Assembly: GCF_019263745.1 (NCBI RefSeq) | Contig: NZ_CP077107.1 | Coordinates: 930,001 to 994,000, forward strand | Length of the DNA: 64,000 nucleotides | Direction of reading: 5' to 3' | DNA from: Methanospirillum hungatei | Lineage (GTDB): Archaea > Halobacteriota > Methanomicrobia > Methanomicrobiales > Methanospirillaceae | Shown: one piece after another, positions 4,427 to 17,638 of the stretch | Layout: the number at the start of each line of letters is the position of its first letter | How positions within the stretch are numbered: the stretch's first letter is position 1 | Notes under the pieces: model-generated | The model's input: the letters and a program-made list of their open reading frames with translations, nothing else | What the model was told of the DNA's origin: nothing | Database searches by the model: none | Made by a program: the position numbers and the translations under genes

Positions 4427-4451
4427 ATTGTTAAACCAACTGATTAACAAT
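4427..4451. promoter_or_regulatory. Operator-like inverted repeat upstream of the chelate-transport operon
   Basis: ATTGTTAA at 4427-4434 and TTAACAAT at 4444-4451 form a perfect 8-bp inverted repeat with a 9-base spacer. An AT-rich TATA-like stretch (about 4453-4472) follows, and the first transport gene starts at 4597. The placement suggests a repressor or metal-regulator site. No regulator has been identified. Confidence 0.4.
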
Positions 4452-4596
4452 ACCAAATAATTAAATTTTTTACATCTATCCACGAACCCCTTTTGACTCA
4501 TCATTGTCATTGATCCGGAAAGAATGAATTCTATAAAGAAAAATCCGGACTCAAGCCATGTGAGGAGAAATGTATCGGTATTACTGGAGAACCCGA

Positions 4597-5712
4597 ATGA
4601 AACGATTTGGAATATTTTTCATATACGTAATTCTTGGAGCATTACTCCTTGGATTGCCATGCTGTGCAGAAGAGGCCGCAAAAACACGAACCCTTACCGA
4701 CATGGCAGGTAATGTTGTAGAGATACCTGAAAACATTGAGCGGGTTGCATTTTTTGGTGGACCAATCGGTCAGGTCCCCTATATCCTTGGAGTCCAGGAT
4801 ACCATTGTTGCAACATCCATCGGAAGCAAGAATTCTCAGCTTCTGAATATTATGGATGATAACCTGAAGAATATCCCCGCAGCACGACAGACAAACGGGA
4901 TCATCAATATTGAGGAGTTAATTAAATCAGAACCACAGTTTGTTCTTGCCGGTGATGTTGATGGTGCAATCGTTGAAAAACAGACCACAATTCCGGTAGT
5001 ATACTTCTTTGAGAACTCTGAAGGTACCGCAGAACAGACAAAAGCAGAAGTCGCTTTTATCGGTTCAATCTATGGAAAAGATGATCGGGCACAGAAATAT
5101 GCTAACTATCTTGACTCTATGCTGTCACTGGTAAAATCCCGTATCGGGGACATTCCACTTTCTGAACAGAAGGTTCTTTTCAACGGATATGATGCAAATC
5201 ACCTCATCACCTATGGTGGGGACAGTTACATGCAGGAACGTATCGAAGCCGCCGGTCTGAAGAATGCAGCACAGGAAGTGAATACCTCTGGTGTCAGACC
5301 AGGAATTCATGCAGGCCTTGATGAAATTTCCATGGAACAGGTCCTGAAGTGGAACCCTGACATTCTTGTAATCGATACCGGATCCCCTGAAGATGTATAC
5401 AATGATCCAAAGTGGGCCAGTGTTAAGGCAGTTCAGAACCGTCAGGTATACCGGCTTCCAAATGGTGTGTTTGTGTGGAACCGCCCGACTGCAGAATCAG
5501 CAGTGCTCCATCCACTATGGATGGCTAAGATAGCATACCCAGAGAGATTTAATGACATTGACATGCATGATGAAGTCAAAAAATTCTACCAGGAGATCTT
5601 CTCTTATGAATTAACCGACGAGCAGGTCGATAAGATCCTCTCTGGTGAATTTGCATCTGCAATCAGTGCAGGAAAAGGACAGACAAACCAGACGAACATG
5701 GGAAATAAGTAA
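4597..5712 (+). CDS. ABC transporter substrate-binding protein, iron-chelate/corrinoid type
   Basis: The frame is open from ATG 4570, but ATG 4597 is chosen: it has GGAGA seven bases upstream and starts directly with a signal peptide (MKRFGIFFIYVILGALLLG, then CCAEEA). The 371-residue product has the Peripla_BP_2 fold. TLTDMAGNVVEIPENIERV opens lobe one, ITYGGDSYMQERIEAAGL and WNPDILVIDTG lie in lobe two, and the C-terminus ends in a Gln/Asn-rich tail. It would capture a metal chelate or corrinoid outside the membrane and hand it to the FecCD permease encoded 71 bases downstream. First gene of a five-gene operon. The exact ligand cannot be read from sequence. Confidence 0.85.
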   Translation: MKRFGIFFIYVILGALLLGLPCCAEEAAKTRTLTDMAGNVVEIPENIERVAFFGGPIGQVPYILGVQDTIVATSIGSKNSQLLNIMDDNLKNIPAARQTNGIINIEELIKSEPQFVLAGDVDGAIVEKQTTIPVVYFFENSEGTAEQTKAEVAFIGSIYGKDDRAQKYANYLDSMLSLVKSRIGDIPLSEQKVLFNGYDANHLITYGGDSYMQERIEAAGLKNAAQEVNTSGVRPGIHAGLDEISMEQVLKWNPDILVIDTGSPEDVYNDPKWASVKAVQNRQVYRLPNGVFVWNRPTAESAVLHPLWMAKIAYPERFNDIDMHDEVKKFYQEIFSYELTDEQVDKILSGEFASAISAGKGQTNQTNMGNK

Positions 5713-5783
5713 TCCCTGATGGATCTACCTTTTCTTTTTTTGGATACCGGACTCTGTCCGCGTCCACCTCAAGAGCAAATGTC

Positions 5784-6827
5784 ATGTCACAACATCCGAA
5801 ACGTAAGGAATTCTGGGGAAAACGAAATTATTCAGTCTTAAGAATAACACTCATATTACTGCTTGCCTTCACCACGTTGATCTCCCTTATGGTTGGCAGA
5901 TTTGAGGTTCCGCCATTTGATGTGATAGCAGCCATCTTTTCAGGTATTATTCCCTGTCAGGATCTCTCTCCCACGGTCAAAAGTGTAATCGTTGATGTCA
6001 GGCTCCCAAGAGTTCTTGCCGTCATTATTGTCGGTGCTGCATTATCTGTTGCAGGTGCTGCCTTTCAGGGATTATTCCGAAATCCGCTGGTTTCCCCGGA
6101 TATCCTGGGAGTATCTGCCGGGGCCGGATTTGGTGCAGCCCTTGCCCTGCTTCTCACAGAAAACATCTTTATCACACAATTATTTGCATTTTTACTGGGT
6201 ATTTTTGCCGTTGGGCTCGCATATCTTATCAGCCGGGTTTACAAAGTGAGCTCAACCCTAACCCTCGTCCTTGCAGGAATCGTGGTCGCAGCACTCTTTC
6301 AGGCACTCACATCACTTGTGAAATATGTGGCCGATCCCCTGAACAAACTGCCTGCAATCGTGTTCTGGCTCATGGGATCATTTAACCACATCTCAAATTC
6401 TGACCTTCTTGTTGCCGGACCACTTCTTCTCGGTGGGCTTTTGATCCTGTACCTGATCAGATGGAGAATTAATGTCCTGTCCATGGGTGATGAAGATGCC
6501 CGGGCACTTGGTGTAGACATTAAACAGCAAAAGGCAATTATTATTGTATCCGCCACCGTCATTTCTGCAGCAGCAGTATCAATCTGCGGTATTGTCGGAT
6601 GGATTGGCCTTGTAATTCCCCATGTTGGTCGTCTTCTTGTTGGACCGGATCACAAGCTTCTCATCCCTATTGTAGCACTCGTCGGTGCATCATACCTGCT
6701 TATCGTAGATACCGTTGCACGAACAATCACCGTCACAGAAATTCCGATCGGTATAATTACCGCCCTTGTCGGAGCACCGGTCTTTGCATATCTTCTCCGC
6801 AGAACACAGACGGGGTGGAAACAATGA
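5784..6827 (+). CDS. FecCD-family ABC transporter permease
   Basis: The 347 residues are strongly hydrophobic with about ten predicted membrane segments, as usual for the BtuC/FecCD/FhuB family. Family landmarks are visible: VRLPRVLAVIIVGAALSVAG, GLFRNPLVSPDILGVSAGAG, GWIGLVIPHVGRLLVGPDH (the loop that touches the ATPase) and the terminal EIPIGIITALVGAPVFAYLL. It forms the membrane channel for the chelate delivered by the preceding binding protein. Its stop overlaps the ATPase start (ATGA at 6824-6827), so the two are translationally coupled. Confidence 0.92.
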   Translation: MSQHPKRKEFWGKRNYSVLRITLILLLAFTTLISLMVGRFEVPPFDVIAAIFSGIIPCQDLSPTVKSVIVDVRLPRVLAVIIVGAALSVAGAAFQGLFRNPLVSPDILGVSAGAGFGAALALLLTENIFITQLFAFLLGIFAVGLAYLISRVYKVSSTLTLVLAGIVVAALFQALTSLVKYVADPLNKLPAIVFWLMGSFNHISNSDLLVAGPLLLGGLLILYLIRWRINVLSMGDEDARALGVDIKQQKAIIIVSATVISAAAVSICGIVGWIGLVIPHVGRLLVGPDHKLLIPIVALVGASYLLIVDTVARTITVTEIPIGIITALVGAPVFAYLLRRTQTGWKQ

Positions 6828-7615
6828 ATCATCCCTTGCTTATCAGGGATCTTACCTTTCGTTATAACCACAAGGATCCTGAACCGGTTTTTTCAAGTGT
6901 ATCCCTCCATTTATCAGAGGGAGAGATCTTCTGCCTGATAGGACCGAATGGAACAGGAAAGTCCACCCTTATAAAATGTATTGCAGGTCTCCTTTCTTAT
7001 GAATCAGGGGAAGTGCTCATTGAAGGAAATAACCTTCAATCGTTGACCCCGTCTCAGTCAGCCAGAATAATTGGATATGTACCTCAGTCTCATATCCCAT
7101 CATTTCCCTTTCCGGTTCGTGACGTCGTGGTAATGGGACGTTCGCCTCATTTAGGTCCGCTCTCTTCTCCAACCCTTGCAGATATGCAGGTTGCAGATGA
7201 TGCAATGGATACTGTTGGAATAGCTCATCTTGCAGATAGACCCTGCACTGATATCAGCGGTGGTGAATACCAATTGGTCCTGATAGCACGAGCATTGACC
7301 CAGATGCCAAGAATTTTACTCCTTGATGAGCCGACATCACACCTGGATCTTGGAAACCAGATGAAAATTTTGAGGACAATTGCCCGTCTGAGTGAACAGG
7401 GACTGACAATTCTCATGGCAACTCATTTTCCAGATCATGCCTTTTTATTGTCCGGGCGGGTCGGAGTAATGATGAGACAAGGACTAACCAGGATTGGTAA
7501 GGCAGAGACCGTCATCACAGAAGATTCCATGAAAGAGGCATATGATGCAAGAGTATCTATCATGACCATACCAGGAAATGACGGACGAAAAATCTGTGTG
7601 CCTCTTTTATCCTAA
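6824..7615 (+). CDS. ABC transporter ATP-binding protein, FecE/BtuD type
   Basis: The frame is open far upstream, but ATG 6824, overlapping the permease stop, gives the normal 263-residue length. Walker A is GPNGTGKST, the Q-loop YVPQSH, the signature ISGGEYQLV (Ile in place of Leu), Walker B ILLLDEPTSHLD and the switch histidine MATHFPDH. It powers the FecCD permease. The C-terminal part (ETVITEDSMKEAYDARVSI) matches the usual tail of this subfamily. Third gene of the operon; a methyltransferase gene follows after 30 bases. Confidence 0.92.
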   Translation: MNHPLLIRDLTFRYNHKDPEPVFSSVSLHLSEGEIFCLIGPNGTGKSTLIKCIAGLLSYESGEVLIEGNNLQSLTPSQSARIIGYVPQSHIPSFPFPVRDVVVMGRSPHLGPLSSPTLADMQVADDAMDTVGIAHLADRPCTDISGGEYQLVLIARALTQMPRILLLDEPTSHLDLGNQMKILRTIARLSEQGLTILMATHFPDHAFLLSGRVGVMMRQGLTRIGKAETVITEDSMKEAYDARVSIMTIPGNDGRKICVPLLS

Positions 7616-7645
7616 AAAAAGACTCACATCATCAAAGATGAAAAA

Positions 7646-8323
7646 ATGAACGAATTACATCAGACAGAACAGAAATCAGGGAGCGATTGTGAAAAGTACG
7701 ACCCAATGGATGAACAAAAAGCACGGGCTTTTGATAAAACCGCATCCACCATCTTTGCTCCAATTTATCCGGTAATTGCAGACCAGATTCTTGAAAGGAC
7801 ACAAATTCGGAATGGGACCGCTCTTGATGCAGGATGTGGACCTGCTCATCTGTCAATGGCCCTGGCACAAGCATCGGATCTTCGAATCTATGCTTTTGAT
7901 ACATCCCCGATGATGCTTCAGATTGCGTATGAACACATCACAGATGCAGGACTTGTCAGAAAAATTGTCCCGGTTCTTGGAGATATCCATGATCTTCCCT
8001 TTGAAGATGGAACAATAGATCTTGTTGTCAGTCGTGGTTCCTGGTTCTTCTGGGAGGATCTGCAGGGTGCTTTTCGTGAAATTTATCGCGTTCTTTCACC
8101 CGGAGGAGTAACATACATCGGAGGAGGGTTTGGCAACTCAGCTCTGAAAGAAGCAATTCATACCGCAATGGCAGAAAGAGATCCTGAATTCTCCAAAGGG
8201 GTTTCTAACCGGATGATGAGAAATAATCCTGACCGGATTAGAGAAGAACTTGAAAAGGCAGAGATCCGTTCCTATGAACTGATTCAGGACGACTCAGGAT
8301 TCTGGCTTATGATGAGAAAATAA
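7646..8323 (+). CDS. Class I SAM-dependent methyltransferase
   Basis: The 225-residue protein has the Rossmann methyltransferase core: motif I ALDAGCGPAHLSMAL, motif II region YAFDTSPMMLQIA, an acidic GDIHDLPFEDGTIDLVVSR (motif III/IV) and LSPGGVTYIGGGF (motif V). It is of the UbiE/Methyltransf_11 type. It lies between the ABC ATPase and the radical SAM gene (10 bases before the latter), so it probably acts on the imported compound or on a chelator. A methyltransferase is also present in the second chelate operon of this window (56416-57231), which supports a real functional link. The substrate is unknown. Confidence 0.85.
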   Translation: MNELHQTEQKSGSDCEKYDPMDEQKARAFDKTASTIFAPIYPVIADQILERTQIRNGTALDAGCGPAHLSMALAQASDLRIYAFDTSPMMLQIAYEHITDAGLVRKIVPVLGDIHDLPFEDGTIDLVVSRGSWFFWEDLQGAFREIYRVLSPGGVTYIGGGFGNSALKEAIHTAMAERDPEFSKGVSNRMMRNNPDRIREELEKAEIRSYELIQDDSGFWLMMRK

Positions 8324-8333
8324 AGGAGAACTT

Positions 8334-10070
8334 ATGACAACCTGTTCAGTATGTGAGATGCAGTGTGAAATCCAGGAGAACCGGTCTGGATCCTGCGGCA
8401 TGTATACCTGTCATGATGGTCAGATTCATGAACGGTTTCCAAATTCATACCTTATTGAGTATCCGGTAAGTATTGAGACGATCCCGTTTCTACACTTTTA
8501 TCCTAAAAATAAATTCTTACAGGTCAGCACGGTTGGTTGTAATTTCAGATGTGTCGGGTGTGTATCAGATCTCCTGACACGGACAGCAGCAGAATTTACT
8601 CCGTCTCTGATGAACACGTCACCAAAAGACGTGGTTACCCGTGCTGTCAACGAGAAATGTAAGGGAATAGTCTTTGCACTCAATGATCCAACGGTGTCAT
8701 TTCCAACCTTTCTTGGTCTGGCAGATCAGGCGAAAAAAGCTGGACTCCTGATCGGATGCTCAACAAATGGATATTTCACCGAAGAGTCATTATCCCAGAT
8801 GATACCGGTTGTTGATGCAGTTGCTGTCGGGATTAAAGGATGTGATGATGCCGCCTACCACACATGTGGAGTGAGATCATCAGAACCGGTGTTCAGAAAT
8901 ATCAAAAAACTGGTGGATTCAGGCATCCATGTCGAAGTGACCGTGGTGTATGAAAAAGGATCTGAAGAAGATCTGGTAAAGACGGTAAAGCGTGTTGTAA
9001 AAATCAGCCCGGAGATCCCCATTCTGGTTATGAGATTTATTCCCTTTGGTCCTGCTGATCTGGCCCTTGAACCAGGCATCCGTGCATCTGAAGAGATGTG
9101 TGACAAATTGCGGGAATATGCCCGATATGTTTATCTGTTTAATTCTCCGGGTTCGTCATATCTTCAGACCAGGTGCCCGGAATGTGGTCAGGTCATTGTA
9201 CGACGGGAATTTTATGGCCCGATGGGTGCCAGGGTAATCGACAAATCCACACAATGGACCTGTTCCTGTGGATGTACCATACCACATACTGGCACGATTG
9301 CACAGGAAACATACCAGGAAGAGGGTATGATGGGAGGGTATCGGCCCACTCGTGCTCTTGAGATAATCAAGGCAATTACCACTTGTCTTGATATTCAGGA
9401 TGAAAAAACAAGTGCAAAGGTCTGGATGGATTTTATATCCCAAAATTATATCGACATACTCCACAAGAAGATCCAGAAGATTGAAACGTTCTATGAGGTC
9501 ATTGCACATCTGGCAGAGATTACCGGAACAGTCCACAAAGGTGCTCAGCTCATCTCGTATATTCAAGATCGGACAGCATACATCTCATCCCTGGTGCAGA
9601 ATAAAAAAAGACCACGAGTTCTGTATGTCATGGGAACACCGCTCTTTCTCTTAAATGAAGACCGGTTTGAAAACGCAATGGTCAGAGCAGCCGGAGGTGA
9701 ACCGGTTAACATAAATCTACCCCGGAAAGGAAAACCTGGGATCATGGTGGATCCGGCGTTTATCAACCAGCTGAATCCGGATGTAATCATGGTATCTGGA
9801 TTCCTGGCAACTCCTGTTGAGGATATGTATGCAATCTGTGAGGAACAGGGTATTGATGTGAATGCAGTCCGAAACCACAGGATCCATCTTATGCCCCCAT
9901 CATGGGATTTTGGCAGCCCACGGTTTGTACTAGGTCTTTTCTACCTGGTCAGTGTGCTCCACCCAGACTGTACTGTTGATATTGAGAAAGAAGCAGAGCA
10001 GTTTTACCAGCAGTTCTATCACATGTCATATGCTGAAGCGAAACCAAACAGGTCCTTTTTCCGGGCCTGA
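8334..10070 (+). CDS. Radical SAM enzyme fused to a periplasmic-binding-like domain
   Basis: A fusion of 578 residues. The N-terminal 30 residues hold a Cys cluster (CSVCEMQCE, SCGMYTC) as in PflA/AmmeMemoRadiSam-like activases. The radical SAM motif CNFRCVGC follows near residue 65 and would bind a 4Fe-4S cluster. A zinc-ribbon-like part (CPECGQ ... CSCGC, about 280-320) closes the enzyme part. From about residue 415 (RPRVLYVMGTPLFLLNED, then LNPDVIMVSGFLATPVEDM) the sequence resembles a BtuF/FepB-type binding-protein fold. No signal peptide is present, so this fold would be cytoplasmic and may hold the imported ligand for the radical reaction. It is the last gene of the transport operon. 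The reaction is not known. Confidence 0.75.
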   Translation: MTTCSVCEMQCEIQENRSGSCGMYTCHDGQIHERFPNSYLIEYPVSIETIPFLHFYPKNKFLQVSTVGCNFRCVGCVSDLLTRTAAEFTPSLMNTSPKDVVTRAVNEKCKGIVFALNDPTVSFPTFLGLADQAKKAGLLIGCSTNGYFTEESLSQMIPVVDAVAVGIKGCDDAAYHTCGVRSSEPVFRNIKKLVDSGIHVEVTVVYEKGSEEDLVKTVKRVVKISPEIPILVMRFIPFGPADLALEPGIRASEEMCDKLREYARYVYLFNSPGSSYLQTRCPECGQVIVRREFYGPMGARVIDKSTQWTCSCGCTIPHTGTIAQETYQEEGMMGGYRPTRALEIIKAITTCLDIQDEKTSAKVWMDFISQNYIDILHKKIQKIETFYEVIAHLAEITGTVHKGAQLISYIQDRTAYISSLVQNKKRPRVLYVMGTPLFLLNEDRFENAMVRAAGGEPVNINLPRKGKPGIMVDPAFINQLNPDVIMVSGFLATPVEDMYAICEEQGIDVNAVRNHRIHLMPPSWDFGSPRFVLGLFYLVSVLHPDCTVDIEKEAEQFYQQFYHMSYAEAKPNRSFFRA

Positions 10071-10131: not shown

Positions 10132-10689
10132 ATGAGCCGAAAATTGGTTTTATTCATTTCAGGTCTGCTTATTATCAGTCTGATATCTACTGGAAGTGCA
10201 GACATGACCACCCTTCCCCAGGTACAGCTTCCCCTAGCTCCGCCTGCACAAGAAGCACCATTTGACGATGATGAATTCTTTGATCGGGCAAACACAACCA
10301 TATACACAATCTGTAATGGGCAAACCCTCCCGGTTGGGAAGATGAATACTGCCGTTCATGACTCCCTGGCCGGAACTTATTACACTCTTATCAGGATGAA
10401 TATCAGTCAGGAACAGTACCCACAGGCAGAAGAGATCCTATCATTCCTATCCTATACCCTGACACTCTCAGAAAAATACCAGGACTATGAATCAGAGCAG
10501 AATAAATTCTCTCCGGTGGATATGGGTATTACCCCTTATGAAGATCTGGTGCCCTGGTACGATGCAGCAGCCGGAGTCTGGAAGAAGATCTCCAAAGAGT
10601 TTCCGGGTGCAAAGATGTATGGTATGCCCTCTTCAATCGGACCGAAAAACTGGACATTAGGGGAATTTCCAGTTGTAGGAACATCATAA
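10132..10689 (+). CDS. Small exported protein of unknown function, paralogue of 17093-17638
   Basis: The 185-residue protein begins with a signal peptide (MSRKLVLFISGLLIISLIS, cut near TGSA). The mature part has a Pro-rich lead (LPLAPPAQEAPFDDDEFFD), a CNGQTLPVG segment, and helices with YTLIRMNISQEQYPQAEEIL and LSYTLTLSEKYQDYE. The minus-strand protein at 17093-17638 shares the same plan (APPAQ, DDD.FF, CNG, ISYTLS, GAVKIWDTIS against AAGVWKKIS), so the two form a paralogous family. No known domain was recognised. It lies 61 bases after the radical SAM gene but may be a separate unit. Confidence 0.7.
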   Translation: MSRKLVLFISGLLIISLISTGSADMTTLPQVQLPLAPPAQEAPFDDDEFFDRANTTIYTICNGQTLPVGKMNTAVHDSLAGTYYTLIRMNISQEQYPQAEEILSFLSYTLTLSEKYQDYESEQNKFSPVDMGITPYEDLVPWYDAAAGVWKKISKEFPGAKMYGMPSSIGPKNWTLGEFPVVGTS

Positions 10690-17092: not shown

Positions 17093-17638
17093 TCAGACTT
17101 TTTTGGGAGGCATTTTATACATAACTGCATCAGGGTATTGAGTAGAGATTGTATCCCAAATTTTTACTGCACCATTGTAATATGCTGTAGCCCAATTATA
17201 AGCAGCCATCCCGTCAATTACCGGTGAATCTTTCTCCCAATCTTTTTCATACGTATTATAGAAATCCATTACACTCAGAGTGTATGAAATAAATGTCATG
17301 ACATTTTCTGCCTCAGCATGCCTTTCCTGACTCACTTTCATCCGGACCATTTTATAATATCTATCTTCCAGTGAATCAAATGCCATAATGTTACTTTTAC
17401 CAACAGCAAGTTCTTTTCCATTGCACAAATTATGTATTGTTTCATTTGCAAGAGAAAAGAACGAATCATCATCATATGGTGGTGACTGTGCTGGTGGAGC
17501 AAACATGATATCTACTTCCAGCTTGTACGACTTCGGAATGGCTGAGGAACCATCGATAATTTCACCCGATACAATAGTAATTCCTCCTGCAATCAAGGTC
17601 ACCATGAGGAAGCAGATGAGAATGAAAAATTGTCTCAT
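17093..17638 (-). CDS. Small exported protein of unknown function, paralogue of 10132-10689
   Basis: The 181-residue protein has a signal peptide (MRQFFILICFLMVTLIAGG). Its mature part repeats the plan of 10132-10689: MFAPPAQSPPYDDDSFFSL, NLCNGKELAVGKSN, YYKMVRMKVSQERHAEAENV, FISYTLSVMDFYNTYE and GAVKIWDTISTQYPDAVMY. The single conserved Cys in the CNG segment and the APPAQ/DDD motif define an apparently unnamed family. No enzymatic motif is seen. It is transcribed alone. Confidence 0.7.
   Translation of the reverse strand: MRQFFILICFLMVTLIAGGITIVSGEIIDGSSAIPKSYKLEVDIMFAPPAQSPPYDDDSFFSLANETIHNLCNGKELAVGKSNIMAFDSLEDRYYKMVRMKVSQERHAEAENVMTFISYTLSVMDFYNTYEKDWEKDSPVIDGMAAYNWATAYYNGAVKIWDTISTQYPDAVMYKMPPKKV

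Follow-up and report, generated by a model that had tools for sequence, protein, structure and literature searches.

A radical SAM enzyme with half a class III binding protein at its C-terminus in a FecCD-type importer operon of Methanospirillum hungatei: a candidate molybdenum/tungsten assimilation cassette

MolABC (HI1470-1472) is a molybdate/tungstate importer of the BtuCD/FecCD class in which MolA binds molybdate/tungstate, and as described in PMC4031551 neither a methyltransferase nor a radical S-adenosylmethionine (SAM) enzyme is part of the transporter. The operon analysed here by computation resembles MolABC in combining a FecCD-class permease with a class III substrate-binding protein (SBP), but contains both enzymes in addition. 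It is located at positions 4597-10070 of the window, which is the whole stretch of 64,000 nucleotides of Methanospirillum hungatei DNA under study (G000:C1:930001-994000; host genome G000, 3.39 Mb in one contig). Five closely spaced genes on the same strand encode an SBP, a FecCD permease, an ATPase, a methyltransferase and a radical SAM enzyme; an earlier note on this DNA had named the same five products, and all of them are present and tightly packed. The cluster is read here, at somewhat better than even confidence, as a cassette for molybdenum/tungsten (Mo/W) assimilation, with the methyltransferase and the radical SAM/half-SBP fusion acting on Mo/W or on a ligand for Mo/W after import. 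By analogy, it would be a MolABC-type importer extended by two enzymes, a metal-importer operon that contains a potentially new enzyme step.

Described radical SAM enzymes were compared as well. Residues 3-319 of the fusion align with nearly the whole AmmeMemoRadiSam model (TIGR04337), Cys-rich ends included, at 97.6 bits, below the cut-off of 220; unlike that family, the fusion adds half of an SBP and has an importer and a methyltransferase as neighbours. PflA and NifB have the barrel fold in common with it, and a common fold shows no common reaction. No description of the fusion or of the cassette was found in the literature searched, from which subscription papers are largely missing, and within this incomplete coverage the earlier note's view of an undescribed pathway agrees with the search.

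The radical SAM enzyme and its half binding protein

The fifth gene (8334-10070, +) encodes a protein of 578 amino acids that joins a radical SAM enzyme to one half of a class III SBP, as determined from Pfam matches, an alignment of 32 homologues, an AlphaFold model with this alignment as input (pLDDT 91.4, pTM 0.90) and a fold search. Radical_SAM (PF04055) was matched at residues 65-220 with 48 bits, above the Pfam cut-off. The barrel (8502-9161, +) carries a CX3CX2C motif (C69, C73 and C76) with cysteines invariant in the homologue alignment, and the motif and barrel fold of the radical SAM superfamily are both present. Model residues 32-268 matched PflA (3c8f, Z 18.6) and residues 46-268 matched NifB (6y1x, Z 16.1), at 14-16% identity. 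In front of the barrel is a Cys motif invariant in the 32 homologues (C4-C7-C11-C21; 8343-8396, +), a putative metal site, and behind it a zinc-ribbon-like Cys region (C281, C284, C310 and C312; 9174-9269, +), conserved in the same set. The N-terminus reads MTTCSVCEMQC, and the protein is indeed without a signal peptide.

The C-terminal part is derived from an SBP. Peripla_BP_2 was matched at residues 342-522 (32.7 bits, cut-off 27.5), covering profile positions 74-233 only; a profile from 31 fusion homologues retrieved solved class III SBPs, with 4hn9 at E 2e-16; and model residues 341-567 matched 4hn9 (Z 21.7, rmsd 2.9, 219 residues), followed by CeuE (4inp, Z 19.4) and MolA (3psa, Z 18.8). 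Given the profile E value and the Z score to 4hn9, the match is not a chance one, and the proposed binding-protein likeness is borne out by a class III SBP fold rather than an unrelated one. The extent proposed for it (residues 415-578) has to be revised. The SBP-derived region starts near residue 337 (residues 337-572; 9342-10049, +; delimited from DSSP of the model, the Z score to 4hn9 and the profile search) and consists of the N-lobe helices, the spine helix and the complete C-lobe. DSSP of the model gave zero strands at residues 302-427, compared with four in the N-lobe sheet of the partner SBP model; the N-lobe β-sheet is absent, and therefore the fused part is about half a binding protein. 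It belongs to the Pfam family by score but lacks the Rossmann-like N-lobe sheet of a two-lobed class III SBP.

Class III SBPs bind their ligand between two lobes, and for this reason the radical SAM barrel may stand in place of the absent N-lobe. The C-lobe is strongly conserved among homologues, loops such as PPSWDFGSPRWILG included. Beside one of the fusion genes (L044, 248-2248), a protein of 667 amino acids composed of two tandem SBPs was observed, the first half of which is the SBP closest to the fused C-lobe (80 bits).

In a sample of 295 Halobacteriota genomes, the fusion (E <= 1e-60) was present in 33. The window's copy has about 45-53% identity to its relatives, and the closest named locus is that of Methanospirillum hungatei M59 (89% identity across the fusion). 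Within 9 kb of 39 fusion genes, the methyltransferase was found in 33 cases (directly upstream in 28), an SBP in 28, an ATPase in 28 (the one at L058 being ModC-like), a FecCD permease in 25, a FecCD permease or ATPase in 30, and all four partners in 21. Homologues are thus mostly found near FecCD-type transporters and not away from them, in line with the tie that the earlier note had drawn. A shorter radical SAM paralogue without the SBP part is encoded at position 713721 of G000, and in a scan of genome contigs with a single protein, one close relative and one plain SBP match were the only finds.

ModE-type operator and Mo/W genes around the cassette

Control of modABC by ModE has been described in Methanosarcinales (PMC9765008). 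In the 13 fusion-bearing genomes (f8 set) that we infer to be Methanosarcinaceae, the gene order is SBP-methyltransferase-fusion-FecCD-ATPase, and upstream footprinting of these operons revealed, in most of the genomes, a palindrome that lies some 30-65 bp ahead of the SBP start. A genome-wide search for TTATGTT-N6-AACATAWCG, with one mismatch allowed and the reversed pattern as control, gave 43 distinct sites across the 13 genomes, compared with 0 in each for the control. One site is located upstream of the SBP/methyltransferase/fusion operon in every genome (13/13). The remaining 30 sites lie before modABC-type operons (15), fmdE-F-A (4), fwdD-B (2), modD-like genes (2), S-layer genes (5), an operon encoding an SBP, an HmdB-like radical SAM enzyme and a FecCD importer (1), and a Csa3/HFX_2341-like gene (1), so that Mo/W-type targets (modABC-type, formylmethanofuran dehydrogenase and modD-like) account for 23 of them. 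The targets were grouped from gene neighbourhoods and representatives were checked by NCBIfam, which names ModA, formylmethanofuran dehydrogenase subunit A and FwdD, the last below cut-off; the modD-like genes are below the NCBIfam modD cut-off, with a nearly equal nadC score.

Relative to the published ModE consensus, ATCGNTATATA-N6-TATATANCGAT (PMC545781), the outer bases and the N6 spacing are the same and the inner bases are different. Exactly one ModE-like gene was found in each of the 13 genomes, and in the one inspected the Mop domain exceeds its cut-off and the ModE helix-turn-helix falls below that of TIGR00637. The Methanosarcinaceae orthologues therefore have the operator in common with modABC in genomes containing a ModE gene, as members of a ModE regulon would. 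The operator fits the ModE pattern of Methanosarcinales, and the radical SAM/half-SBP operon was not found as a member of that regulon in the literature searched. A DtxR- or NikR-type operator was considered for Methanosarcinaceae and dropped, because the remaining sites precede Mo/W genes.

Among the other sites, an S-layer-type protein gene was found behind the operator in all five sampled g53 genomes (L114, L117, L121, L128 and L132). In G207:C20 (L129 4234-8001; L214 4234-8697), the operator is followed by an SBP, a BioB/HmdB-like radical SAM enzyme, a FecCD permease and an ATPase; this second, different radical SAM enzyme in a similar operon scored 151.7 bits against HmdB (cut-off 320.9). 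The site at L118 (3645) has one mismatch and lies 29 bp before the Csa3/HFX_2341-like regulator gene, which may be chance.

Mo/W genes were also found beside the cassette itself. At L058 (G121), modA-modB-modC-methyltransferase-fusion form one same-strand string, with modABC in the place of the FecCD importer; therefore the species handled is argued to be Mo/W itself and not only an imported organic chelate. Further Mo/W genes near the fusion were found at L043/L176 (modA, modB and FmdE), L045 (FmdE, FwdD and FwdB), L059 (MoeA and FwdA/B/D), L076 (FmdE and DUF364) and L009. In the host genome G000, two fusion paralogues (2540421 and 2543854) lie between two modA-type genes in a Mo/W island of ~45 kb (G000:C1, about 2516-2561 kb; L168, L009 and L169), which contains MoeA copies, two modA-type operons, fwdDBAC, two FmdE, two DUF364, XdhC and FdhD together with two FecCD importers, four SBPs and the two fusions. 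The methyltransferase also occurs without the fusion in Mo/W clusters, namely with fwdDBAC (L197), with the MOT1 molybdate transporter, modABC, FmdE, FdhD and MoeA (L205), and with FmdE, MoeA, FdhA/B-type genes and a molybdopterin oxidoreductase (L207); the neighbourhoods of other fusion-free copies (e.g. L199 and L203) are without Mo/W genes.

Next to importers in Mo/W clusters, DUF364/DUF4213 proteins (annotated 'putative heavy-metal chelation') were found repeatedly, together with an O-methyltransferase (L009 2713-3630, L169 6483-7310 and L197 4808-5749), which suggests a Mo/W role for DUF364. Adjoining the cassette at L043 (11800-18000, G198), open reading frames with repetitive translations such as VHPHACGEL, SSPRLWGT and FIPTLVGN were observed, resembling a CRISPR array read in frame.

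Partner proteins and upstream region

The SBP gene (4597-5712, +) encodes a class III SBP matching Peripla_BP_2 (PF01497, 83.5 bits) with an N-terminal hydrophobic, lipobox-like segment. A further in-frame ATG is present at 4570, and the start at 4597 is backed by an 89%-identical M. hungatei locus (L012). The FecCD-type permease (5784-6827, +) covers the whole PF01032 profile (301 bits), and its gene overlaps by 4 bp with that of the FecCD/BtuD-type ABC ATPase (6824-7615, +; 263 amino acids; PF00005, ABC_tran, 110 bits). Permease, ATPase and class III SBP in contiguous genes constitute a FecCD/BtuCD-type ABC importer. Against the equivalog cut-offs of the corrinoid importer BtuFCD, the permease (239 vs 461 and 206 vs 334 bits) and the ATPase (199 vs 537 and 126 vs 281 bits) both fell short, and the window SBP gave zero match to the BtuF equivalog in NCBIfam.

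The nearest solved relative of known ligand of this SBP is MolA (3psa; 79.8 bits by sequence, Z 29.4 by fold), with 4ovk and 4hn9 scoring higher; heme binders reached a Z of about 21, below that of MolA. Catecholate binders, such as the CeuE homologue with azotochelin, are among the fold neighbours, and BtuF is absent from the 50 fold matches listed for the SBP model, an absence that excludes nothing. The class I SAM methyltransferase (7646-8323, +), present in 52 of the 295 genomes, contains SRGSxFFW and GGGFG motifs in an alignment of 23 and matches Methyltransf_11 (83 bits), the family structure 3dlc (319 bits) and, weakly, the corrinoid protein-associated CpaM (42 bits, cut-off 180).

Upstream of the operon lies a perfect inverted repeat, TTGTTAA-N9-TTAACAA (4428-4450), a possible operator, the exact copy of which occurs only once in the window's genome. 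A regulon of this repeat was sought genome-wide and none was found, the reversed-pattern control being equally frequent at 2 mismatches; scans for sigma-70 promoters and terminators were not above shuffled sequences. Two related secreted-looking proteins are encoded at 10132-10689, directly 3' of the operon, and at 17093-17638.

Possible functions and meaning for methanogens

In the favoured Mo/W cassette, the extracytoplasmic SBP would capture Mo or W as an oxyanion or small complex, and the FecCD permease and ATPase would import the captured species. The methyltransferase and the fusion enzyme would then work in the cytoplasm, with either the imported metal species or a small organic ligand of the metal as their substrate. 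The half-SBP would bind the Mo/W species and presumably hold it against the radical SAM barrel, at the position of a normal SBP's N-lobe, and radical and methyl chemistry would build or tailor a cytosolic Mo/W ligand. The computation shows the gene content, the fusion with its fold and conservation and, in relatives, the ModE-type operator and the Mo/W surroundings; the reaction and its direction are what we infer for the cassette. Building or tailoring a cytosolic ligand is modestly preferred to the stripping of an imported chelate, given that ModABC can take the place of FecCD and that the methyltransferase occurs without FecCD (L205).

Several observations weigh against the Mo/W assignment. 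The window's operon is outside a ModE regulon: no ModE-type operator was found at it, no Mo/W genes were found beside it, and its genome gave zero match to ModE. None of the four Methanomicrobiales searched has a ModE-like gene, and no common palindrome was found among the Methanospirillum regions upstream of Mo/W genes and radical SAM loci. The window's own copy would serve Mo/W too, and this assignment relies on homology and on the paralogues, given what its own operon lacks. The 13 genomes with the operator belong to four genera only and hence are not independent cases. Outside Methanosarcinaceae, Mo/W genes beside the fusion were found at about 6 of 22 loci compared with 1-2 of 20 random 18-kb windows, which is weak alone and, in view of the random windows, suggestive only. 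The half-SBP is also without the NRP/DRP motif present in partner SBPs.

The alternative that survives best, though unlikely, is that Mo/W enters the cell in an organic chelate, for example with a molybdophore, and that the methyltransferase and the fusion dismantle the ligand in the cytoplasm and free the metal, as an anaerobic counterpart of siderophore-opening enzymes. FecCD importers with class III SBPs usually carry bulky chelates, the C-lobe half in the enzyme comes from that very SBP family, catecholate binders are among the fold neighbours of the partner SBP, and Mo/W regulation fits. However, ModABC, an importer of the free oxyanion, stands for FecCD in L058, no chelate is known for the cassette, and free molybdate/tungstate is what is bound by MolA, a member of the same SBP group (PMC4031551).

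Modification of a protein by the radical SAM enzyme, as a PflA-like activase or a Mo/W-enzyme maturase, with the SBP half serving only for docking or structure, or else sensing Mo/W and so switching the enzyme, is less probable still. The closest radical SAM folds are those of PflA and NifB, activases and a maturase of a tungsten oxidoreductase are among the NCBIfam matches, though each of these is below its cut-off, and Mo/W enzymes are nearby at several loci; but the strong conservation of the C-lobe with its loops argues against it, and the enzyme travels with importers and not with one target enzyme. That a corrinoid, heme or iron siderophore is taken up and remodelled, the kind of substrate that the earlier note had proposed, is very improbable. 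The operon architecture, the SBP fold common to BtuF, IsdE and CeuE and the weak CpaM match would suit it, but the ModE-type regulation in 13/13 Methanosarcinaceae, the Mo/W neighbourhoods and the closer fold of the partner SBP to MolA than to heme binders point to Mo/W; chemical remodelling after import as such is possible. A link to iron-sulfur/pyrite metabolism from M. voltae proteomics (PMC9431491) was also considered and rejected, since no matching gene set was found.

Methanogenesis from CO2 begins with a Mo/W enzyme, formylmethanofuran dehydrogenase. To our knowledge, little is known about how Mo/W is handled between import and cofactor insertion. As a Mo/W assimilation system, the cassette would add two enzymes to this gap in Methanosarcinaceae and Methanomicrobiales, with a tie to the ModE regulon, and the fusion would be a rare case in which half of a transport binding protein is reused within an enzyme. 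The vague annotation of 'chelate import' would thereby become a prediction that can be tested in genetically tractable Methanosarcina.

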